Shown in pieces: positions 5,442-41,727 of a DNA stretch of 64,000 nucleotides. This DNA comes from a virus. The notes beneath the pieces were generated by a model, which saw only the letters and a program-made list of their open reading frames with translations, was not told the origin of the DNA and did no database searches. Numbering within the stretch: the stretch's first letter is position 1; every line of letters begins with the position of its first letter. Both the position numbers and the translations under genes were made by a program. Location of the stretch: the IMG/VR virus record IMGVR_UViG_3300020473_000023, positions 1 through 64,000 of that record. One strand, given 5' to 3'.

Positions 5442-5518
<77 letters not shown>

Positions 5519-5524
5519 AATAAA

Positions 5525-5600
<76 letters not shown>

Positions 5601-5931: not shown

Positions 5932-6681
5932 CTACGAGACTGACACTCGAGACACCTCCATGAAACCCTTCTCTTGAAGCTGAAGGAAGAAGATGTGACC
6001 GGCACCGCCGAATCGGTTCTTCTCAACCTGAAGGACTCGGCATCCAGCCAAGTCCTGGTCCTTTCGCTCCACATCAAGTGTAACCATTGCGTCCACCATG
6101 TGCTTAAGGACATTGGCACCAGCCATTTGTCCGTTCTTCGTGACCTGTCCAATCACGATGGCATTGCAAAAGTTAGCCTTGCAGTAATCTGTAATCATAG
6201 ACAGCGACCGCTGTGCTGTCTTAGAGTTAGTCTGATGGTCGCCGTACTTTCCATCATTGAGACACTGAAGAGAGTCAATGATCAGAAAGAACGGCTTGTT
6301 TGGATTCTTAGCACGGAGCTTATCACAGTCCTCAAGAAGCTTCGGAACCATTGTCTCTTGCCCGGCAACAAATCCGTGTCGGAGGCGAAGCCTCTCAACA
6401 GTCATCTTAAGCTGGAAGAGAGATTCCTCTGCTGTGTTGAATAGAACTGTGGCGCCATTGCCAGTAAATGCATTTGCCAGCTCCAGCATCATTGTGGTCT
6501 TTCCAGCACCGGGAGTCCCAGTGAAAAGTGTAACCATCGAAGGAGTAAACCCACGTCCTCCCATTGCATCATCAAAGTATGTAAGTCCGGATCGGACGCG
6601 ACGTCGCAACTGCTGTGGTACTTCAACATCAAGAATGTTGGTTCCAAACTTAATATCACCTGCGTTTACATTGAGCTTCAT
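5932..6681 (-). CDS. radA: RadA/Sms-like RecA-superfamily ATPase
   Basis: A 249-residue protein containing the ATPase core of RadA. It has Walker A GTPGAGKTT near residue 55, a Walker B-like FFLIIDS, the GQVTKNGQMAG segment typical of RadA, and the diagnostic KNRFG motif near residue 223. In bacteria RadA drives branch migration during recombination. The phage version lacks both the N-terminal zinc finger and the C-terminal Lon-like domain, so it is a minimal form. It could act in recombination-dependent replication. The promoter at 6731-6760 lies inside the end of the upstream gene. The 12-bp inverted repeat follows it. Confidence 0.85.
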   Translation of the reverse strand: MKLNVNAGDIKFGTNILDVEVPQQLRRRVRSGLTYFDDAMGGRGFTPSMVTLFTGTPGAGKTTMMLELANAFTGNGATVLFNTAEESLFQLKMTVERLRLRHGFVAGQETMVPKLLEDCDKLRAKNPNKPFFLIIDSLQCLNDGKYGDHQTNSKTAQRSLSMITDYCKANFCNAIVIGQVTKNGQMAGANVLKHMVDAMVTLDVERKDQDLAGCRVLQVEKNRFGGAGHIFFLQLQEKGFMEVSRVSVS

Positions 6682-6706
6682 AACATCTCCTTGGTTGTGT
6701 GTGCTG

Positions 6707-6997
6707 TTAGCTCTGTTTCCTTTCTAAAATATTATACCACACCACTTTGCTGTTTACACGCGGCATAAAGTAACTATGCCAAATCATGTGATAGACTGCC
6801 CTGTGCCCCTCTTTAAGAAGACAATCGGCAAATTCAGTGATATCTGGTCTCCGAAAACCCTTTGAGCTATTGTGATAAAACCAGCCGTCTTTATAGTCGA
6901 CATCGTGATCCTTTGGGTCAGAGCCCGCGTCTGAGAGAATATCATTGAATAGTGCAATGCACATCTTCTTTTTCTCGTAACTGTTCCATTTTGCCAT
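6707..6997 (-). CDS. Unknown 96-residue protein
   Basis: The protein starts MAKWNSYEKKKMCIALFND and contains GWFYHNSSKGFRRPDITEFADCLLKEGHRAVYHMIWHSY. It is aromatic and histidine rich with no motif I recognise. Its own promoter lies at 7004-7033, and its final codons contain the promoter for radA. Confidence 0.55.
   Translation of the reverse strand: MAKWNSYEKKKMCIALFNDILSDAGSDPKDHDVDYKDGWFYHNSSKGFRRPDITEFADCLLKEGHRAVYHMIWHSYFMPRVNSKVVWYNILERKQS
6731..6760 (-). promoter_or_regulatory. Phage promoter, CGTGTAA / 17 bp / TATAAT
   Basis: On the minus strand CGTGTAA, a 17-base spacer and a perfect TATAAT. The -10 box is about 50 bases upstream of radA and embedded in the 3' end of the preceding gene. 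Confidence 0.75.
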
Positions 6998-7003
6998 AGC
7001 TTT

Positions 7004-7033
7004 ATTATACAGCAGCTTCTAAGAAATTACACG
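7004..7033 (-). promoter_or_regulatory. Phage promoter, CGTGTAA / 17 bp / TATAAT
   Basis: A minus-strand CGTGTAA box, a 17-base spacer and a perfect TATAAT seven bases before the ATG at 6997. The transcript would therefore have almost no leader. A short inverted repeat (ATTAC/GTAAT) overlaps the -35 box. Confidence 0.7.
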
Positions 7034-7040
7034 GGTAATG

Positions 7041-7256
7041 CTAACTTAGCTGCCTAGATAAAAGGACTAAAGATGTTCCACTTTCAATTGTGGGATTTTT
7101 ATCATCTTTTACTGGAACCTGATTCCAGAAGACTTCATATTCATCACACAAGGGCCTGTGAGCTCTCGTGTAGCAGCTTACTATGATTCCAACACACTCA
7201 GGAAAGACAGAGTGTCTAACAAGATCACCCGGGGAAAATGAATCTTCTGCCCCCAC
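7041..7256 (-). CDS. Small SH3/KOW-like protein (GDLV family), GTG start
   Basis: A 71-residue protein starting at GTG, with SPGDLVRHSVFPECVGIIVSCYTR, then YEVFWNQVPV and a final SLVLLSRQLS, the family pattern. GGAGCT just upstream, overlapping the end of the tagged peptide gene, supports the GTG start. Confidence 0.6.
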   Translation of the reverse strand: MGAEDSFSPGDLVRHSVFPECVGIIVSCYTRAHRPLCDEYEVFWNQVPVKDDKNPTIESGTSLVLLSRQLS

Positions 7257-7729: not shown

Positions 7730-9559
7730 TTACTTTAAGAGGTCAGCAAGACTAACATTTCCATCCAGGTAGGAGGCTGCTCCTCGCACCCTGTGTCTCA
7801 CGACCGACTCGTTCATGCTGAGCCCAGTTGCTGTGGCAGTGCCAGCTCCTAAAGCTGCGGTACCCCTTCCATATTTAGGTACACGTCTACCACCAGATCC
7901 GGCAGGAGCTGCACCGCCTGCGGGTGCTGGAGCGCTGCCGCCACCAGTTGGAGCTGGAGCTGTCCCCCCAGACGAACCACCAGAAGCTCGAGAGCCACCG
8001 CTTGCAGGAGCAGCAGCAGTTCCGCCGCCTCCGGCTGGTGCAGCAGCTCTACCCGTGTCTGTGGCTGTTCGACCAGTAGCAGTTACACCTGCCGGAGCTG
8101 GAACTGCAGTTCCAGCTGCTGTCAGCTCTGTTCTTGCCGTTCCGATCACAGCGAGATCATCCACAGAATTCTTAAGTTGCTGTCCCCCGGCAGCGAGAAC
8201 AAAATCATCTGAGAGGTTTTGAATTGGGACCATAGTTCCTCTTCCACCTGCCAGCCCTGTATTTACTGTTCCAAGACGTCTGACAAACTCACCGTCCGGC
8301 CCACTGGTCATTCTAAAACTTCGACCAACCTGGCCAACGCCTTCTGGTCCGCGTCGACCGACTTTGGCAATTACGGCAAATGTCTGCGTAGTTCCATCAT
8401 CAGCTGTCTGAGTAACGAACTTTCTAATTCCAAATCCTGACGGATTGGTGAGTGTGACTGTCCTTCCTGCAGCATTTTTAACTGTGAGCTCTGTCATTTC
8501 AGTCGCAGCTTTTCCGACAACCTGAGAGTTCATAGCCTTAAGTGTGGCTCCTTCTGCCCTGGCGATCCTAGTCGCAACCACAGCTACATCATCCGTCGCG
8601 CTAACACCGAACTTAGAAAGGTTTCTAACACTCTGTCTAGAGATAATGGTGTTAATTGCAGTAGAGGCTCTCTGAACCGCAAGACCGAGCATTCTTCTAA
8701 CTGCGTCAATTCCCCTCTGAAGAGCAGTGGCCATCTTACTCATCATGGTTGGCGCTCCACCCTTTGCTTGGATTCTAGCCGCGTATTGACCTGCCTTGTC
8801 AACTGGGAGGGCTTTCCACATCTTCATCACCCATTCCCAAACAGTTCCTCCGGGCTTGAACTGCTTGGTAAGGGGAGTGATCACTTCGACAACTTTCTGG
8901 CCGATCTTCTTAATCGGGCCCCATCTCATGATTCTTGCAACTGCCTTTCCTGCAAGACCCTTAGCTTTATTTACTTCCTTCCCTAGCCAGAAGATGGGGC
9001 CGGCTGTTAGGCCAAGGGCATCACCAACAGCTGGAATTGCCATAACCATAAATACAGCTGACATGAGAAGTTCAAAGTTGCTAGTAGACTTAAGAAACAT
9101 GTCAAGAGAGTTGACAATATCTATAACAGCTCCGGAGCCTGGGGCAACTAAGTCCGCGCCCATTCCCACAAAAGGTATGATCAGGTTGATCCACTTATTT
9201 TCAACACCAAAGACACCTTGTGCCCTGATCGGCTCCATTCCCTGGGAAGCTGCAGCATCGACATCAGCATCAGTGGGCGGAGTAACTGCAACAGCCTGTT
9301 CTCTTAGAAGCTTTTCAAGATTAGGAAACTCAGATTCAAAAAGCATATCAGCTTCTTCATTAAGCCTCTCAATCTCCAGCTTTATCTCAGAAAGTCTCGT
9401 AAAAGAAGTTCCAAAGTTATCTTTGTAGTATTTATCTAGATGCTCACGAATGGTATCACGGGCCACAAGCTCTAGAGAAACTCTTCTTCTTGCCTCAGCC
9501 TGGACAAGTGTTTTGGTAACCTCATAGGATATTATTGCTCGAGGAGATGTAAGTTGCAT
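7730..9559 (-). CDS. Large hydrophobic/low-complexity protein, possible virion protein
   Basis: A 609-residue protein. Residues 1-100 are helical and charged. Residues 120-210 hold several hydrophobic segments (LIIPFVGMGADLVAPG, MVMAIPAVGDALGL), which resemble the glycine-rich hydrophobic stretches before toxin domains in secreted effectors. The middle is basic and helical. Residues 480-570 are an Ala/Gly/Pro/Ser low-complexity linker. The end carries SMNESVVRHRVRGAASYL, a weak copy of the ESLLR-type tag. No catalytic motif is seen. A virion protein or an effector delivered with the genome are both possible. An AT-rich TATATTTATAA element lies about 36 bases upstream of the start. Confidence 0.6.
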   Translation of the reverse strand: MQLTSPRAIISYEVTKTLVQAEARRRVSLELVARDTIREHLDKYYKDNFGTSFTRLSEIKLEIERLNEEADMLFESEFPNLEKLLREQAVAVTPPTDADVDAAASQGMEPIRAQGVFGVENKWINLIIPFVGMGADLVAPGSGAVIDIVNSLDMFLKSTSNFELLMSAVFMVMAIPAVGDALGLTAGPIFWLGKEVNKAKGLAGKAVARIMRWGPIKKIGQKVVEVITPLTKQFKPGGTVWEWVMKMWKALPVDKAGQYAARIQAKGGAPTMMSKMATALQRGIDAVRRMLGLAVQRASTAINTIISRQSVRNLSKFGVSATDDVAVVATRIARAEGATLKAMNSQVVGKAATEMTELTVKNAAGRTVTLTNPSGFGIRKFVTQTADDGTTQTFAVIAKVGRRGPEGVGQVGRSFRMTSGPDGEFVRRLGTVNTGLAGGRGTMVPIQNLSDDFVLAAGGQQLKNSVDDLAVIGTARTELTAAGTAVPAPAGVTATGRTATDTGRAAAPAGGGGTAAAPASGGSRASGGSSGGTAPAPTGGGSAPAPAGGAAPAGSGGRRVPKYGRGTAALGAGTATATGLSMNESVVRHRVRGAASYLDGNVSLADLLK

Positions 9560-9621: not shown

Positions 9622-10410
9622 CTATAGAGCAGTTCTTATAATTCTTCTAATATTCCTTCTAGTCCTGCGGTCCGAAATGTCAGCAAGATTTGAGATTCCT
9701 CGGAGTATTTCTACCTCATCAATCATGTGAGCAGGCGTCACCCAGATAATGTCCTCAATTACCTGTGGGACAAATGCCCTCTCAACAGAAACGCCCCACA
9801 AGATTCCTACAAACCTTCCCCTGTCGTCATACACCCCGGAACCTGAACATCCGAACCATCCGTATGTGTGGAGCATGACAACAGGACCGTTCGGAACTGT
9901 GTGCTCATATCCGGCAACTGTTCCTCTGATTGACATCAAGTTTAAATCTGAAGGGTAGCCAGAATATAGTGTAGTTGTTCCAATAGATGCGCTTATATCA
10001 AGAGGTCTATATCTCATCGGAGACTGTCCCTCAATAGGCTCAACTAAAATTGCTGCAACGTCAATGTCCCTGTCTTGATAGACTAGTCTTCCAACTGTTC
10101 TTGAATCACCTCTGCCAACTATCTCATAGGGGTCTCCAAGAGCTCCCTCTGTAACGTGAGCAGCTGTTAGAATAAGGTGAAATCCTCGATACTTGATGTA
10201 TGTCCCAGATCCATGACCTCCTCCCGCAAGGACCTTCACAGCAGAGTCTCGAATTCTTCTCTCAGTGCTCCTAAGTGATGCTACATCTTGAACACCCGCG
10301 GAGGAAATGCTGGCATCATTAATAAGATGTGCCTCTGTGACCTCATCAGCGGCAAAAGAACTTAGGCAAAAAGCCCAAAACAATAAAGCAACCCTAAAAA
10401 TAAATTTCAC
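9622..10410 (-). CDS. Secreted trypsin/HtrA-like serine protease
   Basis: A 262-residue protein with GTG start after a strong AAGGAGG site. A signal peptide of about 20 residues (hydrophobic core ending SFAADE) predicts export. The chymotrypsin-fold triad is visible: His85 in TAAHV, Asp117 in DRDIDVAA and Ser189 in GCSGSG. The spacing and the WFGCSGSGVYDDRGRFVGI context fit the S1/HtrA-like group without a PDZ domain. It would act in the periplasm or outside the cell. The end is arginine-rich. Its neighbour across a small membrane-protein gene is a second exported protease on the opposite strand. Confidence 0.85.
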   Translation of the reverse strand: MKFIFRVALLFWAFCLSSFAADEVTEAHLINDASISSAGVQDVASLRSTERRIRDSAVKVLAGGGHGSGTYIKYRGFHLILTAAHVTEGALGDPYEIVGRGDSRTVGRLVYQDRDIDVAAILVEPIEGQSPMRYRPLDISASIGTTTLYSGYPSDLNLMSIRGTVAGYEHTVPNGPVVMLHTYGWFGCSGSGVYDDRGRFVGILWGVSVERAFVPQVIEDIIWVTPAHMIDEVEILRGISNLADISDRRTRRNIRRIIRTAL

Positions 10411-10691: not shown

Positions 10692-11261
10692 GTGAAAGGC
10701 TTCAACCATACCTTTAAGCTTTTATTAGTAGCTATGATGATTATAGCTGGCTCAATCCCATTGATGGCTGAGGCTTCTACAAGAAACAGGTTTAGACAGC
10801 GTCCAGTTGAGGATACTGTTCAGATCAGAAGAATCCCGATCCAAAACGGATCCTGGCAGATGACTCCAACGGTCGTAATATGCAATTCGTCAATAGCTGA
10901 CATCCACGATGTTGAATCAGCAGTCGAGTGGTGGAGAGAGAGGGGCCATATGATTGGACAGGTAATTGTCAATGATTCGGGACAGGTTTGTCATCAAGCC
11001 GGAAGAGATGGATTTATTACAATTGAAGGTCCCGATGCTAAGTTCGACTTTGACTTTCTTGCAATCACACACAGAAAATCCTCGCGAGACGAAATATTGT
11101 CTGCGAGGATTCAACTAAGAGGTTCGAGTGAGAGAAGTAGAGTTCTAGAACATGAAATTGGCCATGCTCTAGGATGGAGTCACTGCAACAGGCGTGGTCA
11201 CATTATGAATCCAGAGTGGTCAAGAGGCGGTTGGAATGACTCTGGCCTCGAGAAACAATAG
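10692..11261 (+). CDS. Secreted matrixin-like zinc metalloprotease
   Basis: A 189-residue protein, one of very few on the plus strand. A signal peptide ends near residue 28 (LMAEAS). The metzincin zinc motif HEIGHALGWSH lies at residues 154-164, with the Met-turn at about 172 (HIMNPEW), as in matrix metalloprotease-like peptidases. Four cysteines could form disulfides after export. The GTG start has no clear ribosome site and follows closely on a TACGTATTTTAT element, so the start is uncertain. The gene is divergent from the small membrane-protein gene and convergent with the gene at 11265. Confidence 0.85.
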   Translation: MKGFNHTFKLLLVAMMIIAGSIPLMAEASTRNRFRQRPVEDTVQIRRIPIQNGSWQMTPTVVICNSSIADIHDVESAVEWWRERGHMIGQVIVNDSGQVCHQAGRDGFITIEGPDAKFDFDFLAITHRKSSRDEILSARIQLRGSSERSRVLEHEIGHALGWSHCNRRGHIMNPEWSRGGWNDSGLEKQ

Positions 11262-11854: not shown

Positions 11855-11884
11855 ATTATACCATGAGAAGGTATGAATTACACG
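11855..11884 (-). promoter_or_regulatory. Phage promoter, CGTGTAA / 17 bp / TATAAT
   Basis: Minus-strand CGTGTAA, a 17-base spacer and a perfect TATAAT. It overlaps the last codons of the IMPDH-like gene and drives the small genes 11265-11837. Confidence 0.75.
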
Positions 11885-12903
11885 CGATTGATATGCGTAG
11901 AGCTTTCAACTGAACCTGCTGAGGTTTGTCTAATGAAGCTAGAAGCTGCTTGCAGCTCAGCAATACTACGGGCACCTGTGTATGACATTCCACTTCTAAC
12001 ACCCGTCATAATTTCACTAATGATATCTTTGACATCTCCCTTTAGGGGAACTGTCGATGAAACACCTTCGATAGACGCTGTATGTCCCCTCCATTGAATT
12101 TGTGCGTCCTTGCTTGCCATTCCCCTATATGCTTTGCAGCGACCTCCATCAAGATAGATGATCTCACCAGGAGTCTCTGTTGCTCCTGCAAGCATTGATC
12201 CAAGCATAACCATATCAGCACCGGCAGCAAGAGCTTTGACAATATCTCCAGAATTCTTGATACCGCCGTCTGCAATTAGAAGTGAATCCCTATCAGTTTG
12301 AGAGCAATCCATGATAGACTGAAGGGTTGGGATACCGTGTCCGGTTTGAATTCTTGTAGAGCAGATCGAACCTCCTCCGACACCGACTCTAATTGAATCT
12401 GCTCCCCAGTCTGACAAATCATTGAATGCTTCAAGAGTTGCAACGTTTCCTGCCATTATGTGAACTTTATCTGCAAAAATCTTGCGCAGCTCCTGGATGG
12501 CAGACTTCATTAAGATGTGGTGACCGTGAGCGATATCGACACAAATGACTCTAGCACCTGCCTCTGACGCAGAAATTGCCCTATCAAGATAATCTCCAGA
12601 AACTCCAACAGCTACTCCGACCAGCCCGGTTATTGACTGCCTAAGAGTTTCTGAAACTAGAGACGACTGCCTCTCAATTGTGTTGTATCTGTGAATAATT
12701 CCAAGGCCTCCACAATCAATCATAGCACCAGCCATTGAGCTTTCAGTCACAGTATCCATTGGACTAGATACGATAGGGATCCCTAGTGTCGATGCACTGC
12801 TAAGCTTAACGTTTGTATTGACCTCTTTTCTAGATCGAATATCACTATACTGCGGCTTGAGAAGGACATCATCAAAGCAAAGACCCTGTTTAATTTTATT
12901 CAA
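11878..12903 (-). CDS. IMP dehydrogenase / GMP reductase family enzyme without CBS domains
   Basis: A 341-residue TIM-barrel enzyme. It has the start [18 protein letters not shown] near residue 47, the catalytic loop GGGSICSTR with Cys181, the phosphate-binding DGGIKNSGD near 212, and YRGMAS near 259. The YRGM element and the ending IRQTSAG favour IMP dehydrogenase (IMP to XMP, GTP synthesis). The short length without the usual CBS pair and the GDVKDII segment resemble GMP reductase, so the exact reaction is open. Losing the CBS pair would remove nucleotide feedback control, which could suit a phage needing guanine nucleotides. It overlaps the TilS-like gene by eight bases. Confidence 0.85.
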
Positions 12904-13519
12904 CTTTATTCTCCCAATTTTTCTTGTAGTCTTTCTTGACTTTTTTCTTAATAACTTTTCTTAGCCCTGGGTTGACTCTAAGGCACTGCGGAACAATTGA
13001 ATGACGAATAATTGATCTCATAAATTTTTCATCATAGTTGCCAGGATCAGTAAGATATTCAACTTTATTTTTCTCACACCATCTAATGAATGATGCCTTT
13101 GGCGTCGTCAAAAAGGGTCTGATTACATTGCCCCTTCTATACGGAATCAATCTTGTGTTCCCATGGAGAGAGGTGAACAAATACCACTCAAGGCAGTCAT
13201 CAAGATGATGGCCGGTCACAATATCACCTGGTATGCAGTCAAGCCACGCATACCTCTCATCTCTCCAGTGTTCTTCAAGAGACTTATCTATCGGCTTAGA
13301 AGGAAAAATTGAACCAATTATAACAGGAACTTTCTTCTTCTTGCACCAGTCAACGATAAACTCTCTCGCTTGGGTCCCGTGAGATGTTCCGTGATTAAAA
13401 TATGCAACAGTTACATTCTTCTTTCCCTTTATTAGAAAGTCGACGATGGCCATTGAGTCTGGACCGCCGCTGCATGCAACTGTAATATCATTCGGAATCT
13501 TTCCAAGAATGCGAATCAT
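12896..13519 (-). CDS. TilS-like PP-loop ATPase (tRNA-Ile lysidine synthetase N-domain)
   Basis: About 207 residues from the ATG at 13519, which has GAGG just upstream. The earlier in-frame ATG at 13540 lies inside the -10 box and cannot be used. The PP-loop SGGPDS is at residues 17-22, followed by VAYFNHGTSHGTQAREF, DERYAWLD and VTGHHLDDCLEWYL. These match TilS, which adenylates C34 of tRNA-Ile(CAU) and adds lysine. The two C-terminal TilS domains are missing. A tRNA-Ile(CAU) gene is not in the window, so the substrate could be a host tRNA. Another PP-loop activity cannot be excluded. Confidence 0.75.
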   Translation of the reverse strand: MIRILGKIPNDITVACSGGPDSMAIVDFLIKGKKNVTVAYFNHGTSHGTQAREFIVDWCKKKKVPVIIGSIFPSKPIDKSLEEHWRDERYAWLDCIPGDIVTGHHLDDCLEWYLFTSLHGNTRLIPYRRGNVIRPFLTTPKASFIRWCEKNKVEYLTDPGNYDEKFMRSIIRHSIVPQCLRVNPGLRKVIKKKVKKDYKKNWENKVE

Positions 13520-13535
13520 TTTTTCCTCATGGTAT

Positions 13536-13565
13536 ATCATACCACAACAGTACTCGATTTACACG
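13536..13565 (-). promoter_or_regulatory. Phage promoter, CGTGTAA / 17 bp / TATGAT
   Basis: Minus-strand CGTGTAA, 17 bases, TATGAT, just upstream of the TilS/IMPDH-like pair. The -35 box overlaps the stop end of the SH3-like gene at 13559. Confidence 0.65.
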
Positions 13566-15476: not shown

Positions 15477-15553
15477 TGGCTCCCCCTGTTGGACTTGAAC
15501 CAACGACACCCGGATTAACAGTCCGGTGCTCTAACCAGCTGAGCTAAGGGGGA
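15477..15553 (-). tRNA. tRNA-Asn (anticodon GTT)
   Basis: A 77-base cloverleaf on the minus strand with acceptor TCCCCCT/AGGGGGA, anticodon loop CTGTTAA, T-arm GGTTCAAGTCC and an encoded CCA. Confidence 0.95.
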
Positions 15554-15600: not shown

Positions 15601-16875
15601 TCACCTCTCCATCTTAATAACCACATCCCCTTTTGGCGGGTCAAAGGCTAGAGATCTTCCGGGAACAATTACCCAGGCCCGTCTTAGACGGCTTGGGCCT
15701 GGGCTAGAGCACTCACCGTCTGTCAAGACAATGTATCCATCAAACTTTCCAGCATTTTCTCGTGCGTGCCTGGCGACGGCATTAAAGCTAGTCCCACCGT
15801 ACCTGTGTCGAACAGGTGGGATATTTTGCCCCCTTCTCCATTCAATAGAGTTCTTCTCATCAACTTCAGTATCAAAGGGAAAGAGTGTAAAGTTGATCTT
15901 CTTTCCAAGGTTGTTAAGCTCTGCAAAGAGAAGTTCAATGCTATCAGATCCAACAGAACCAGATTGATCCATGTAGACGGCAATGTTTGCACTATGACCC
16001 CGTCGGATACCAGAGTGAATGTAGGGATACTTTCTATTAATCCTCTTCATAGTTCTACTCTTGTTCATCCGCTGGCTCCTTCCACAGAAGCTCTTAAGCA
16101 AAGTAGACCAGGGAATTGTATTGGAGACCATCTTTCTAAGATCCTCTCGAACAGATCCGGGAACAGATCCCCACTCTCCGCTACCATCACATCGCTTGAC
16201 TGCCTCAGAGACAGCCTGCCGGATCTTGCCCTCTACGATCTGACGATCTTCGTCGGACATCTCATCCCACTCGCCGTGGTCATCAATCATTACCTCAATG
16301 CCATCTCCTTGGCCCTGAATGGCTTCAGAGATCTCTTGGTCCTCCTGAAGCTTTCCAAAGTACCACTCGCTTGCCATCCCCTTGGGAAGTGACTCAATCA
16401 GGTCAGAGACCTTCTTCCACTTTTCAAGCAGGGCAGGATCTTCAACCTTGCTAAGATCAAGTGCCTTTCCTGGCATAAGACCACCCTCAGGAAGCTCCTT
16501 CTCCCTGATGAGGCCGTTGATTGCAAGGTCAGTCCCCCAGTTCCAGAGAATATGTGGGTCTTTCTTTCTGGACGTTACGTGCTTGTAAATCCAGTGATAG
16601 CACTCATGCTTCATAAGCCCTCTAACTTGAATGGGCTTTAAGCTCGCAAGGAACTTCGGGTTCCAGAAGAGTGTGGGATCCTGGTCAACAACTCCGATCC
16701 CAGCGGTTGAAATATCAGCCTTTCTCTTATTGAACTTACGAAGAACATGGCTAAAGAATGGCTCGTGAAGCATTAGATTGATGAGGTGGGGATCCAGTTC
16801 AAATGATGCTGCTTCCTCATCGGAAACCTCGTCAACTGTGACAGGAACATCGGTTTCAGTAGTCTTACCTTTCAT
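15601..16875 (-). CDS. DUF2201-type VWA-like / metallopeptidase-like protein
   Basis: A 424-residue protein. The first half fits the putative metallopeptidase domain of the DUF2201 family, with KHECYHWIYKH carrying an HExxH-like HECYH near residue 110 and WNWGTDLAIN after it. The second half is a VWA-like domain with a MIDAS-type YMDQSGSVG near residue 318 and VLTDGECSS near 392. In bacteria such proteins pair with MoxR-type AAA+ ATPases, and exactly such an ATPase is the next gene upstream (16939-18012). The pair is thought to act as a chaperone or metal-insertion machine. Its target in this phage is unknown. It has its own promoter at 16892-16921. Confidence 0.8.
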   Translation of the reverse strand: MKGKTTETDVPVTVDEVSDEEAASFELDPHLINLMLHEPFFSHVLRKFNKRKADISTAGIGVVDQDPTLFWNPKFLASLKPIQVRGLMKHECYHWIYKHVTSRKKDPHILWNWGTDLAINGLIREKELPEGGLMPGKALDLSKVEDPALLEKWKKVSDLIESLPKGMASEWYFGKLQEDQEISEAIQGQGDGIEVMIDDHGEWDEMSDEDRQIVEGKIRQAVSEAVKRCDGSGEWGSVPGSVREDLRKMVSNTIPWSTLLKSFCGRSQRMNKSRTMKRINRKYPYIHSGIRRGHSANIAVYMDQSGSVGSDSIELLFAELNNLGKKINFTLFPFDTEVDEKNSIEWRRGQNIPPVRHRYGGTSFNAVARHARENAGKFDGYIVLTDGECSSPGPSRLRRAWVIVPGRSLAFDPPKGDVVIKMER

Positions 16876-16891
16876 ATTTCCTCCTACCCCT

Positions 16892-16921
16892 ATTATAACA
16901 CAATTGGGGGTTGCTTACATG
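16892..16921 (-). promoter_or_regulatory. Phage promoter, CATGTAA / 17 bp / TATAAT, inside an inverted repeat
   Basis: Minus-strand CATGTAA, a 17-base spacer and a perfect TATAAT, 17 bases before the VWA gene. The six-base -35 core is exactly the loop of the 10-bp inverted repeat at 16905-16930. Confidence 0.75.
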
Positions 16922-16930
16922 CAACCCCCA
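16905..16930. repeat. Perfect 10-bp inverted repeat enclosing the -35 box
   Basis: TGGGGGTTGC at 16905-16914 pairs with GCAACCCCCA at 16921-16930 around the loop TTACAT. It lies between the MoxR and VWA genes. As RNA it would form a strong hairpin after the MoxR stop codon but has no U-run. As DNA it is a candidate operator over the VWA promoter. Confidence 0.8.
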
Positions 16931-16938
16931 GTATTTAA

Positions 16939-18012
16939 CTATTGAAGATTTCGAGCTACTGTAACTGCTTCTAGAACAGCCTGACCCAAGAACTTGTGAA
17001 GACGAGTGATGTTATTAACCTCACCAGAATCCATCACGTTGTTCCAGAGAGAAACAAGCATCTCACCCGGAAGAGTCTTTGCGAATACAGAAATCCTCTT
17101 GCACTGCTCTGCTGTCCACTCATTATTCTTACAGTGCTCACTGATCTTGTCAATGATGGAATTAACCTTATCATTGCTCAGGTCACTGATCTTCTCAGAG
17201 AACTCTTCATAGCGATCAATGACGTCCTCTGCAGAGATTTGAAGATCGTAGTTCTTGACAAAATCAACAAAGGTGATTGCTGCCTCAGCTCCTACGAAAC
17301 CAAGTGACATTGCATAGAATCCAGAGGGAGTATTCCTTCCGCAGATGGAAGAGGGAGTCATCCCAGCAGACTTTAAAGAAGTATCAATCCGCTCCCAGGA
17401 GCGGGGAGATGGGTAAACCTTTCCAGGCTCAATTTGCCCGACATGTCGAAGGTGAGCGGGATGGTGGCTGATAAAGTCCACAACAACCTCGTCAATCCCA
17501 GCTGCCTTGGCCCACTCAATCCAGTCCTTATCAGTTGGCTCGAGGTCAACAACCCAGAATCGATCCAGCAATGCAGGATCCATCTCATTGACCTGATAGT
17601 CAGCGGATGCGTTAACTGCGCAGAAGATACGAGTTTCTGGGTGAAGCTTATGACCATTCAGCTCACGGTCTAGAACGAGCTGGAAAGCACACTGCATCAC
17701 TTCAGGGGTTGCCCGATTAACCTCATCAAGGAAGAGTGCAACAGGTTCCCGACAAGCTCGAAGCAGCCAGTCAACCGGTGCAAATCGAGTGACACCGTCA
17801 ACAAGCTCCGGGAGTCCGATGATATCTCCCTCAGTCATCTGTGCGAGACGTCGGTCAATAAGGTCAATCCCGGTGGAGCCGTCTTCCAGATCGATTGCTG
17901 CTGCAACCTGTCGGAAAATCTGAGACTTACCAATTCCGTGGGGACCTCTCACGAGGATTGAAACGTCAGAAGGTAGCGAGGAAGCTACGTTAACAAAAGT
18001 CTTGATGTCCAT
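16939..18012 (-). CDS. MoxR-type AAA+ ATPase
   Basis: A 357-residue AAA+ protein with Walker A GPHGIGKSQ near residue 24, Walker B VALFLDEVNRA near 91, sensor 1 in FCAVNAS near 130, and ALLDRFWVVDL with the arginine-finger region near 146. The layout is the AAA_5/MoxR type. It is the partner of the DUF2201/VWA gene downstream. Together they resemble the RavA-ViaA or MoxR-VWA systems, in which the ATPase remodels or activates metalloproteins or complexes. The C-terminal 120 residues are helical. It is transcribed from the promoter at 18042-18071. Confidence 0.85.
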   Translation of the reverse strand: MDIKTFVNVASSLPSDVSILVRGPHGIGKSQIFRQVAAAIDLEDGSTGIDLIDRRLAQMTEGDIIGLPELVDGVTRFAPVDWLLRACREPVALFLDEVNRATPEVMQCAFQLVLDRELNGHKLHPETRIFCAVNASADYQVNEMDPALLDRFWVVDLEPTDKDWIEWAKAAGIDEVVVDFISHHPAHLRHVGQIEPGKVYPSPRSWERIDTSLKSAGMTPSSICGRNTPSGFYAMSLGFVGAEAAITFVDFVKNYDLQISAEDVIDRYEEFSEKISDLSNDKVNSIIDKISEHCKNNEWTAEQCKRISVFAKTLPGEMLVSLWNNVMDSGEVNNITRLHKFLGQAVLEAVTVARNLQ

Positions 18013-18041
18013 TACATCTCCTTGGTTGTGTTTACTTTTCT

Positions 18042-18071
18042 ATTATAAAACAAAACGTGCACAGTTACATG
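18042..18071 (-). promoter_or_regulatory. Phage promoter, CATGTAA / 17 bp / TATAAT
   Basis: Minus-strand CATGTAA, 17 bases, TATAAT, about 30 bases before the MoxR gene. GCACA/TGTGC half-sites flank the -35 box. Confidence 0.75.
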
Positions 18072-18076
18072 TGCTA

Positions 18077-18343
18077 TTACCACTTTTTGCTTTGAATCCT
18101 TTTAAGCTTGCCGGCATAGACTGTCTTCTTTCCAGATGATGTCATCACAGTCATCAAACCAGAGCTGCTAGGCTTGCTAACAACAAGACCCCAGATATCT
18201 GAATCTGATTCTCTAACAAGGTCACCTACTTCAAACATCCACTGCTTCTTTCTTGTAGGTCTGGAGCTAGGATGGGCGGAAGTAGATCTAGAGTTGGTAA
18301 AAGCCTTCTTTAAATCTTTCTTATACTTTTTGGGAATAGCCAT
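18077..18343 (-). CDS. Small SH3/KOW-like protein with basic N-terminal extension
   Basis: An 88-residue protein. The first 32 residues are lysine/serine rich (IPKKYKKDLKKAFTNSRSTS). The core then reads FEVGDLVRESDSDIWGLVVSK, LMTVMTSSGKKTVYAGKLKRI, the family pattern. The basic extension suggests nucleic-acid contact (inference). Confidence 0.65.
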   Translation of the reverse strand: MAIPKKYKKDLKKAFTNSRSTSAHPSSRPTRKKQWMFEVGDLVRESDSDIWGLVVSKPSSSGLMTVMTSSGKKTVYAGKLKRIQSKKW

Positions 18344-18364: not shown

Positions 18365-18394
18365 ATTGTAACACAAACATTAGCCAATTACATG
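18365..18394 (-). promoter_or_regulatory. Phage promoter, CATGTAA / 17 bp / TACAAT
   Basis: Minus-strand CATGTAA, 17 bases, TACAAT, upstream of the SH3-like gene at 18343. The -35 box overlaps the stop codon of the small membrane-protein gene. Confidence 0.65.
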
Positions 18395-18765: not shown

Positions 18766-19188
18766 TTAAGTGCACCAACTTTCTTCAGGTTGTTCAAGAT
18801 CAGGTTGTTCTCTATAGTCAACTGTAATCTCTGTGCCGACAGGAAGGTCCCTGAGTGTATGCAATCTTCTAACGTTTCCGTCCATCACATTTGCACAATT
18901 CGGTTCCTCAGAGTGATTGTGGTATCTTCCGAGCTCGGTGACATCCCACCCACTCTCCGGCCTTCTGACGTGGCAGACACCAATCTCCTCTCCCTGTCTA
19001 AAATCTCTATCTGTAAATGCACCCATTCCCTGGATATCAGACTGTTGTATCACAAAATCTTTTCCAGTATTGTAGCCGAGACCGTAAGCCTCCTCGGGCC
19101 CCATGTCATCCAGATCACTGGGAGCAAGATGCATCTCAAGCTCTTCCCTAATGATTCTTCTTAGATCGGACCCTTTAATACGCATCAA
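18766..19188 (-). CDS. Helix-tagged SET-domain protein (putative protein methyltransferase)
   Basis: A 140-residue protein. Residues 3-20 are the shared tag (RIKGSDLRRIIREELEMHL). Residues 29-41 hold the PEEAYGLGY motif seen in the protein at 598-1413. From residue 45 a compact SET domain follows: SDIQGMGAFTDRDFRQGEEIG, the NHSEEPN motif at 91-97 and the final GTEITVDY at 118-125. In the family the NHS and DY elements bind S-adenosylmethionine and form the active site that methylates lysines. The post-SET region is short (ending ESWCT). The substrate is unknown. Its gene starts overlapped with the double-tagged protein upstream. Confidence 0.8.
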   Translation of the reverse strand: MMRIKGSDLRRIIREELEMHLAPSDLDDMGPEEAYGLGYNTGKDFVIQQSDIQGMGAFTDRDFRQGEEIGVCHVRRPESGWDVTELGRYHNHSEEPNCANVMDGNVRRLHTLRDLPVGTEITVDYREQPDLEQPEESWCT

Positions 19189-23633: not shown

Positions 23634-23721
23634 TGGCGGAAGCGGTGAGATTCGAACTCACGGTAGGTTTCCCTACGCCGGTTTTCAAGACCGGTACCTT
23701 AAACCACTCGGTCACGCTTCC
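23634..23721 (-). tRNA. tRNA-Ser (anticodon TGA)
   Basis: An 88-base minus-strand tRNA with the long variable arm of serine tRNAs, acceptor GGAAGCG/CGCTTCC, anticodon loop CTTGAAA, T-arm AGTTCGAATCT and encoded CCA. Confidence 0.95.
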
Positions 23722-24874: not shown

Positions 24875-24959
<85 letters not shown>

Positions 24960-29518: not shown

Positions 29519-29604
29519 TGGTACCCGGAGCCGGATTCGAACCGGCACGCCCTTACGAGCAGAAGATTTTAAGTCTCCTGTGTCTACCATTTCACCACCC
29601 GGGC
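29519..29604 (-). tRNA. tRNA-Leu (anticodon TAA)
   Basis: An 86-base minus-strand tRNA with a long variable arm, 5' GCCCGGGTGGTGAAATGG, anticodon loop CTTAAAA, T-arm GGTTCGAATCC and encoded CCA. Confidence 0.95.
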
Positions 29605-31913: not shown

Positions 31914-31989
31914 TGGAGCCACCGAGAGGACTCGAACCTCCGACCGGCTGATTACAAATCAGCTGCTCTACCAGCTGAGCTACGGTGGC
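31914..31989 (-). tRNA. tRNA-Thr (anticodon TGT)
   Basis: A 76-base minus-strand cloverleaf with acceptor GCCACCG/CGGTGGC, anticodon loop TTTGTAA, T-arm GGTTCGAGTCC and encoded CCA. Confidence 0.95.
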
Positions 31990-40116: not shown

Positions 40117-41727
40117 CTACAACTGATGAAACTCAGCTTGGTCCTCGTCTACCATCGTGCATCCGACAGTAAGCATCATAGATGCAGCTGAGGAAGCATT
40201 CTCCAGTGCAGTTCTAACAACCTTTAAAGGATCTATAATTCCCATCTCCATCATATCACCATACTCATCTGAAAATGCGTTGTAGCCAAGATTCTTTTTC
40301 ATTCCAGTAACCCTGTCTAGAACAACATCCGGTGTTCCTCCAGAATTAATTACGATCTGTCTCAAGGGTTCAGAGCATGCTCTTCTTACAATCTGCCTTC
40401 CAGCCTCGAATCCAGACATAGCATCTGCATCATTATTAGAAAGTATGCTCGCTGCCCTAACAAGGGCAACTCCTCCGCCAGGTAAGATCCCTTCTTCTAT
40501 TGCTGCCTGAGTAGCGTGAAGCGCATCATCAACCCTGTCTTTTCTCTCCCGTAATTCAACCTCTGTCGCACCACCAACCTTAAGAACAGCAACACCACCA
40601 GAGAGCTTCGAAAGCCTATCTTTTAAAATCAACTCCTCAGCCTCTTCAAGAGCGGGGGATTTAAGCTGCTCCCGTATTGAAGTGACTCTTTCCTTAACAG
40701 CTGATTGATCACCTGAACATCCGATAAAGACGGTATTGTTTTTTCCACATATTATCTTTTTACACGTTCCAAGGTTTTCAATGCTGGCTTCTTTAAGAGA
40801 GGTCCCTGTCGTATCCGAGACAATATCACAATCTAAAAGAACGGCGAGGTCTTGAAGCATCGCTATTCTGCTTTCTCCAAATCCAGGAGACTTAATTGCA
40901 CAAGACTCAAGTGTCCCTTTAAGGTGATTAACAACAAGACCCTGCATTGCATCTCCGTCGACATCATCTGCAATTACAAACAAGGGATGACCTGATTCGA
41001 GAACGACTTCAAGAATGTGCATAATATCTTTAAGATTTGTAATTCTAGAATTAGAAAGTAAAACATAGGGATTCTTAATCTCAGATATCATCTTGTCTTG
41101 ATTGTTGACAAAGTATGGAGACAGGTACCCTCTTTCAATATTCATTCCCTCTACAGTTGTTAAAGTAGTATTAAATCCTTTTGCCTCCTCAACTGTGATC
41201 ACACCATCTCTTCCAACAGAGTTAATTGCCTCAACTAAAAGAGATCCAATTTCTGTCTCCCCGTTGGCTGAAATAGTACCAACATGTTCTATTTCTTTAT
41301 CTGTTGTAACTTCAATAGAAAGCTCTCTTAGCTTGTCTATTACATCTGAGACTGCACTTTCGATACCCTTCTTAATTTCTGATGATTGAAATCCAGCAGC
41401 AAGCATCCGAACCCCCTCAGAAAATATTGATTGAGATAGAACTGTTGCTGTTGTGGTGCCGTCACCTGCAACTTCAGCCGTTCTAGAGGCTGCCTCTTTA
41501 ATAATTTGAACACCTAGATTGTCAAACTTATCTTTTAAATTTACAGCCCTGGCAACTGTAACCCCATCTTTTGTCAGGATTGGCGAGCCAGATTGTTGCT
41601 CAATGACTACGTTTTGACCTCTTGGTCCCATAGTTATTTTAACTGCATTTGCCAAGATATTTACTCCGGTTAGGAGCCTCTCTCTTGCAGAAACATCAAA
41701 CTTTATAATCTTATTTGTCTGAGACAT
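40117..41727 (-). CDS. groEL: GroEL-type chaperonin (Hsp60)
   Basis: A 536-residue group I chaperonin, near the usual 540-550. It has MGPRGQNVVIEQQ near residue 31, the ATP-site GDGTTTATVL near 85, apical-domain VEGMNIERGYLSPYF near 190, and the intermediate-domain GGVAVLKVGGATEVE and GILPGGGVAL near 405. The C-terminus ends VDEDQAEFHQL, without the GGM tail of GroEL. It would form a folding chamber for phage proteins. No GroES-like gene is visible next to it, so it may use host GroES or act alone, as reported for some phage single-ring chaperonins. Confidence 0.95.
   Translation of the reverse strand: MSQTNKIIKFDVSARERLLTGVNILANAVKITMGPRGQNVVIEQQSGSPILTKDGVTVARAVNLKDKFDNLGVQIIKEAASRTAEVAGDGTTTATVLSQSIFSEGVRMLAAGFQSSEIKKGIESAVSDVIDKLRELSIEVTTDKEIEHVGTISANGETEIGSLLVEAINSVGRDGVITVEEAKGFNTTLTTVEGMNIERGYLSPYFVNNQDKMISEIKNPYVLLSNSRITNLKDIMHILEVVLESGHPLFVIADDVDGDAMQGLVVNHLKGTLESCAIKSPGFGESRIAMLQDLAVLLDCDIVSDTTGTSLKEASIENLGTCKKIICGKNNTVFIGCSGDQSAVKERVTSIREQLKSPALEEAEELILKDRLSKLSGGVAVLKVGGATEVELRERKDRVDDALHATQAAIEEGILPGGGVALVRAASILSNNDADAMSGFEAGRQIVRRACSEPLRQIVINSGGTPDVVLDRVTGMKKNLGYNAFSDEYGDMMEMGIIDPLKVVRTALENASSAASMMLTVGCTMVDEDQAEFHQL

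Follow-up and report, generated by a model that had tools for sequence, protein, structure and literature searches.

The window analysed here is 64,000 nucleotides of viral DNA, positions 1 to 64,000 of the IMG/VR virus record IMGVR_UViG_3300020473_000023 (106,284 bases). It carries two intact, adjacent open reading frames (ORFs) on the minus strand, the first encoding a MoxR-type AAA+ ATPase and the second a DUF2201 protein that combines a putative N-terminal metallopeptidase domain with a C-terminal VWA domain. The pair is almost certainly a member of the kind typified by gp24 and gp25 of phage N4. The two genes and their conserved motifs are located as follows.

16939-18012, minus strand: MoxR/AAA_5 ATPase gene, 357 amino acids, N4 gp24-like, complete (Pfam, PHROG, AlphaFold2, Foldseek)
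17923-17946, minus strand: ATPase Walker A, GPHGIGKS, residues 23-30; G26, G28, K29 and S30 invariant
17710-17739, minus strand: ATPase Walker B, ALFLDEVNRA (core LFLDE), residues 92-101; D96 and E97 invariant
15601-16875, minus strand: DUF2201 protein gene, 424 amino acids, N4 gp25-like, with N-terminal zincin-like HExxH domain and C-terminal VWA domain (Pfam, PHROG, AlphaFold2)
16594-16608, minus strand: HECYH, residues 90-94, putative metal-binding/catalytic motif; H90, E91 and H94 in 126/126 proteins
15955-15969, minus strand: first motif of the metal-ion-dependent adhesion site (MIDAS), DQSGS, residues 303-307; D303, S305 and S307 in 126/126
15790-15792, minus strand: MIDAS T362 (in GGT), 126/126
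15718-15720, minus strand: MIDAS D386 (in TDG), 126/126

The ATPase matched Pfam AAA_5 (3e-13, above the curated cut-off) and PHROG 1297, annotated as 'ATPase' (2e-61). Besides the Walker motifs it has a sensor-1 residue (N134), an arginine finger (R151) and an SPRSW motif, and the Walker and sensor residues are invariant (n = 56 sequences). Its AlphaFold2 model, built like that of the VWA protein from an input alignment of window and IMG/VR sequences only, reached a mean predicted local distance difference test score (pLDDT) of 93. When this model was compared with the PDB using Foldseek, NorQ ranked first (E 1.9e-10), including complexes of NorQ with the VWA protein NorD, followed by CbbQ (E 4.6e-9); among solved structures, the best match by sequence profile was midasin (PDB, 2e-33). 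RavA gave a weak profile match (5e-4) in which the AAA core alone was aligned, and Pfam returned AAA families only. A CobS-CobT cobaltochelatase was rejected, as the porphyrin-biosynthesis PHROG 249 scored 7.9e-12 versus 2e-61 for PHROG 1297 and the partner is a DUF2201 protein, with no CobT family.

The VWA protein matched DUF2201_N, a 'putative metallopeptidase' family (3.2e-17), and DUF2201, described as 'VWA-like' (2.6e-6), both above curated cut-offs, as well as PHROG 1314 (3.4e-51). Alignment of 126 unique full-length VWA proteins, from the window and its IMG/VR relatives, showed that H90, E91, H94, H99, D116 and N120 are identical in all of them, as are the residues of a complete MIDAS (D303-x-S305-x-S307, T362 and D386). 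Nearly all of these residues are still invariant among 13 sequences from distant phage families, at ~19-26% identity to the window protein. An earlier, sequence-only reading of this DNA had proposed a MoxR-type ATPase followed by a DUF2201 protein with a VWA-like domain and an HECYH site; Pfam, PHROG, motifs and models bear this out, and the MIDAS, whose conservation had been left to alignment, has now been confirmed.

The AlphaFold2 model of the VWA protein has a mean pLDDT of 87, with a low-confidence segment (residues ~251-290) between the N-terminal part and the VWA domain. Its C-terminal domain resembles MIDAS domains, among them integrin I-domains (Z up to 12.6, root-mean-square deviation 2.6, 128 residues). 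The fold search of the whole model hardly probed the N-terminal half, for which the basis of the fold assignment is DUF2201_N together with a weak profile match to the minigluzincin MJ1213 (1e-3). Judged from sequence conservation, the N-terminal HExxH domain may bind metal and have peptidase activity, and H99 and D116 are candidate further metal ligands.

PHROG 1314 bears the label 'HNH endonuclease', which has been carried into several RefSeq phage records. This identity was rejected: the only matches above cut-off were DUF2201_N and DUF2201, and HExxH and MIDAS are the motifs that are conserved. Because no HNH domain was found, the label looks like a propagated misannotation. A separate irregularity was seen in phage V5 (record positions 7807-9199), where the VWA homologue is divided between two reading frames and the MoxR gene is apparently intact; this homologue is possibly a decaying or altered partner.

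The sequence-only reading had proposed a search for the pair in other large phages and their neighbourhoods, and the two genes were found together in nearly all relatives. Among 80 IMG/VR loci seeded with the ATPase, a VWA gene follows downstream on the same strand in 73 of the 79 evaluable ones (one of the 7 loci lacking an adjacent VWA gene is a 3-kb fragment), and within 400 bases in 70 of these 73. Among 80 loci seeded with the VWA protein, the ATPase lies upstream, again on the same strand, in 77/77 evaluable cases, the remaining 3 ending on the ATPase side; the two seeded sets overlap in contigs. In the whole records of the six unpaired ATPase loci, the VWA gene lies elsewhere in 2 and the contig ends inside it in 1, while in the other three, which are fragments of 11-30 kb, no VWA gene was found. 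In Vibrio phage Va1 both genes are present but unlinked, the ATPase at 28.5 kb and the VWA gene at 178 kb, ~150 kb apart. A VWA homologue was present in 20/20 phage records examined, which were picked for carrying one of the two genes and are not an unbiased census.

Some marine relatives also encode a small HExxH protein of ~160-185 amino acids with weak similarity to M78, SprT and DUF6782, located directly after the ATPase or upstream (e.g. positions 6674-7237 in locus L048 and 7123-7668 in L051). A protein of this M78/SprT type lies near the pair in 36 relatives' loci; in the window, none was detected close to the pair. The idea that in six contigs the VWA gene had been lost and the small HExxH protein stood in its place was rejected, because many loci have the small protein in addition to the pair, upstream of it, and the six contigs are accounted for by the two distant VWA genes, the truncated contig and the short fragments described above.

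Only viruses are found among the nearest relatives (54-68% identity). In the genome scan, matches in bacterial bins were limited to two weak ones (29-32%), both with a VWA partner as well, and DUF2201_N was above cut-off in 6/198 genomes of a sample from one phylum. An IMG/VR scan with the VWA protein as a single query gave no match; the ATPase and close-family alignments worked as queries. At the DNA level, no close relative beyond the tRNA region was found in the phage collection.

Each gene of the pair is preceded by a promoter-like element, and sites of the same class occur elsewhere in the record.

18041-18071, minus strand: promoter-like CATGTAA-N17-TATAATA, 28 bp before the ATPase ATG
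16891-16921, minus strand: promoter-like CATGTAA-N17-TATAATA, 15 bp before the VWA ATG
16905-16930, minus strand: GC-rich terminator-like hairpin of 10 bp between the ATPase and VWA genes, overlapping the VWA promoter site
3990, 6760, 7033, 11884, 13565, 16921, 18071, 18394, 29663, 39022 and 49652 in the window, and 65205 and 69020 in the record, minus strand: 5' ends of sites of this class

The exact sequence occurs in 4 copies in the window versus 0.00 expected, all on the coding strand and with the same spacing. With up to 2 mismatches and the 17-base spacing retained, the whole record has 14 sites on the minus strand versus 1 on the plus strand, and the genes they reach include a DNA polymerase (site 65205) and a polynucleotide-kinase-like gene (69020). 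In relatives, CRTGYAn-N17-TATAATA (at most 1 mismatch, within ~100 bases upstream) precedes the ATPase in 32/113 loci versus 0.2% of shuffled sequences, and the VWA gene in 37/118 loci versus 0%. The claim that each gene has its own promoter therefore holds as a sequence feature, with the element present before each ATG and its class conserved in relatives. As a scan of the pair region for the ordinary sigma-70 consensus gave no excess over chance, the class was taken to be a variant; it looks like a phage-specific promoter class whose -10 element is of the sigma-70 type and whose -35 element is an alternative one.

In the window, the pair is adjoined by tRNAs and small genes of no known family. 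One of the latter lies just upstream of the ATPase, and a homologue occupies the position 5' of the ATPase in the nearest relatives (a cluster of 10 loci, the window included).

18077-18343, minus strand: gene of 88 amino acids, no known family, upstream of the ATPase, with its own promoter-class site at 18394

Among the IMG/VR relatives, the recurrent neighbours of the pair are an ATP-dependent DNA ligase (52 loci), a DnaB/RecA-like ATPase (51), an SbcCD-like phosphoesterase-SMC fusion (33) and a primase-like gene (28). In N4 the pair is located between RNAP2 and the dCTP deaminase, with an rIIA-like gene close by, and in Vibrio phage SBP1 a helicase and a DNA polymerase lie just downstream of the pair. 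rIIA as a constant companion was rejected, since at the sensitivity used it was found in 8/20 phage records.

The MoxR plus metallopeptidase-VWA kind is already described, in N4 and in jumbo phages. Of the 14 genes that make up the core of N4-like phages, two are gp24 and gp25 (vWFA), and both give middle transcripts (PMC4193335; core status also in PMC2784036); a search of the literature accessible for this analysis found no experiment on their function. The window pair shares with these Schitoviridae core genes an AAA_5/MoxR gene followed by a DUF2201 gene with HExxH and VWA domains, in the same order and on the same strand, and the PHROG assignments 1297 and 1314. It differs in its sequence (~25% identity) and in having a promoter-class site for each gene, and the window is not established as an N4-like podovirus. 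The two-gene architecture and the domain fusion are also those of group 2.2 jumbo phages (RaK2 ORF53/54, 121Q 563/564), in which the pair is near structural genes, in contrast to the tRNAs and small genes of the window and the replication and recombination genes of its relatives.

Outside phages, the closest solved analogue of the ATPase, NorQ, has a part in metal insertion together with the VWA protein NorD (PMC13036017), so the chaperone-like action that the sequence-only reading had ascribed to MoxR-VWA pairs is a fair comparison. In the NorQD complex, the MoxR hexamer takes up a VWA 'finger' in its pore, and NorD and the target are remodelled through ATP hydrolysis; the MIDAS is required for target activation and dispensable for NorQ binding (PMC9976466, PMC13036017). 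Like NorQ-NorD of Paracoccus denitrificans, the window pair would consist of a MoxR ring and a VWA partner with an N-terminal domain, a linker and a C-terminal VWA domain; unlike NorD, the window partner has an HExxH/zincin-like N-terminal domain, and identity is ~20%. Midasin (Rea1/Mdn1) follows the same logic of AAA ring and MIDAS within one giant polypeptide that holds six AAA modules as well as a MIDAS, in contrast to the two small genes and the HExxH domain found here. RavA-ViaA of E. coli is likewise a MoxR-VWA chaperone couple; ViaA is not known to have an HExxH domain.

In analogy to NorQ-NorD, midasin and CbbQ-CbbO, we propose that the ATPase would form a hexameric ring on which the VWA protein docks, that the MIDAS metal would hold an acidic residue of a client, and that ATP hydrolysis would remodel the gripped client. 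The HExxH domain, with its invariant motif and the conserved H99 and D116, may bind metal and would probably cleave the client or a protein linked to it. The client would most likely be a phage-encoded complex that is made at an early or middle stage and engaged in replication, recombination or genome maturation, rather than a host protein. Such a client is favoured by the promoter class shared with the DNA polymerase and by the neighbourhood in relatives; the middle timing of N4 gp24 and gp25, the neighbouring dCTP deaminase and the helicase and DNA polymerase of SBP1 were also counted in its favour. Taken as a whole, the statement that the pair is an N4 gp24/gp25-type MoxR-VWA remodelling machine with a phage-encoded replication, recombination or genome-maturation complex as its client is, in our judgement, evenly balanced between right and wrong. 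A more specific version, in which a split midasin-like remodeller with its own protease domain acts on the phage replication and recombination machinery in several large-phage lineages, under a phage promoter class shared with the DNA polymerase, is put forward tentatively and is somewhat improbable. The core pair of N4-like phages is also found in unrelated large phages with diverse hosts. A second hypothesis beside virion assembly comes from the invariant HExxH and MIDAS residues, from a pairing that is near-perfect even where linkage is lost, and from the promoter class and the replication-type gene surroundings.

Several observations weigh against a replication-type client. Gene neighbours say little, since co-transcription in phages often joins genes that share no pathway, and a terminase large subunit is also within reach of the pair, farther off, in 31 relatives' loci. 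In RaK2-like phages the pair lies between structural and head-completion genes and the thymidylate synthase. The peptidase part is further weakened by phage V5, in which the HExxH motif is degenerate (HGVGH), the sole such case seen.

The strongest rival, which we consider possible although doubtful, is a virion assembly or maturation chaperone-protease that would remodel and trim proteins of the virion, either structural or injected. The sequence-only reading had stated that the role in the phage is not known; in fact, a role in assembling virions, coupled to peptidolytic processing, was suggested by Iyer et al. (2021) when they described the MoxR and metallopeptidase-vWA pair of group 2.2 jumbo phages, and they referred to the MoxR-vWA system of ATV (PMC7824862). 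In this archaeal virus, the VWA protein p892 is bound by p618, to which a role in tail development has been ascribed (PMC4124505). The ATV proteins resemble the window pair as a viral MoxR ATPase with a VWA partner; they differ in having no reported metallopeptidase domain and in coming from an unrelated kind of virus. Virion assembly is also consistent with phage 121Q, where a structural-protein block precedes the pair. Virion mass spectrometry of phAPEC6 lists an 'ATPase', gp265c, of 49.52 kDa with 6 peptides (PMC7247149). For gp563, the MoxR homologue of the related phage 121Q, the computed mass is 49,514 Da; it agrees with gp265c in mass and gene order, with the 121Q thymidylate synthase (35,510 Da) and phAPEC6 gp259c (35.51 kDa) as an anchor in the same data (PMC7247149). 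The MoxR homologue was thus probably detected in the phAPEC6 virion, a further point against a replication-type client. Carry-over or contamination is possible, because the thymidylate synthase is also in the listed virion, and a protein of the size of the VWA partner (computed 54.1 kDa, expected as gp264c) is not among the virion proteins in the portion of the table that was read (PMC7247149). Virion assembly is also opposed by the transcripts of N4 gp24 and gp25, which are middle and not late (PMC4193335), by the promoter class that the window genes share with the DNA polymerase, and by the surroundings of the pair in the window, in which no structural gene was recognised.

Host takeover or counter-defence, in which the pair would dismantle a host complex or defence machine, is unlikely. 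ATP-driven remodelling coupled to proteolysis would fit such a task, and possible host-directed genes lie nearby (a SET-domain gene at 18766-19188 and a trypsin-like gene at 9622-10410). Against it, the pair belongs to the core of N4-like phages and is present in phages of many hosts, unlike typical counter-defence genes, which are patchy, and a PADLOC search gave no match beyond chance. Disassembly of host complexes, one of the roles suggested by the sequence-only reading, found no specific support.

Metal insertion into a phage metalloenzyme, in the fashion of NorQ-NorD and nitric oxide reductase, is very improbable: NorQ, including its NorD complexes, is the closest solved fold of the ATPase and the window's genome encodes a ribonucleotide reductase large subunit, but the NorD N-terminal domain is different and not of the HExxH type (PMC9976466), and N4, Ebordelon, SBP1 and Axy04 carry the pair without that subunit. 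Ribonucleotide reductase was rejected as a general client because these four carriers lack its large subunit. It was the one general candidate examined, and in its case the suggestion that the pair activates a phage metalloenzyme has lost ground.

Several other genes of the window were recorded. Seven tRNA genes are dispersed over it on the coding strand (ranges 5442-5600, 15477-15553, 23634-23721, 24875-24959, 29519-29604 and 31914-31989). The SET-domain protein at 18766-19188 (minus strand) has 140 amino acids (Pfam 8.8e-9) and is unusual for a phage. Adjoining the trypsin-like protease gene (9622-10410, minus strand) is a plus-strand ORF with a metzincin-type HEIGHALGWSH motif (10692-11261), in a genome otherwise mostly on the minus strand. 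An IMP dehydrogenase/GMP reductase-type enzyme gene (11878-12903, minus strand; 2.8e-104) overlaps a PP-loop ATPase gene (12896-13540, minus strand; 2e-29), and a phage-encoded GroEL-type chaperonin is located at 40117-41727 on the minus strand (PHROG 5725, 1e-156).

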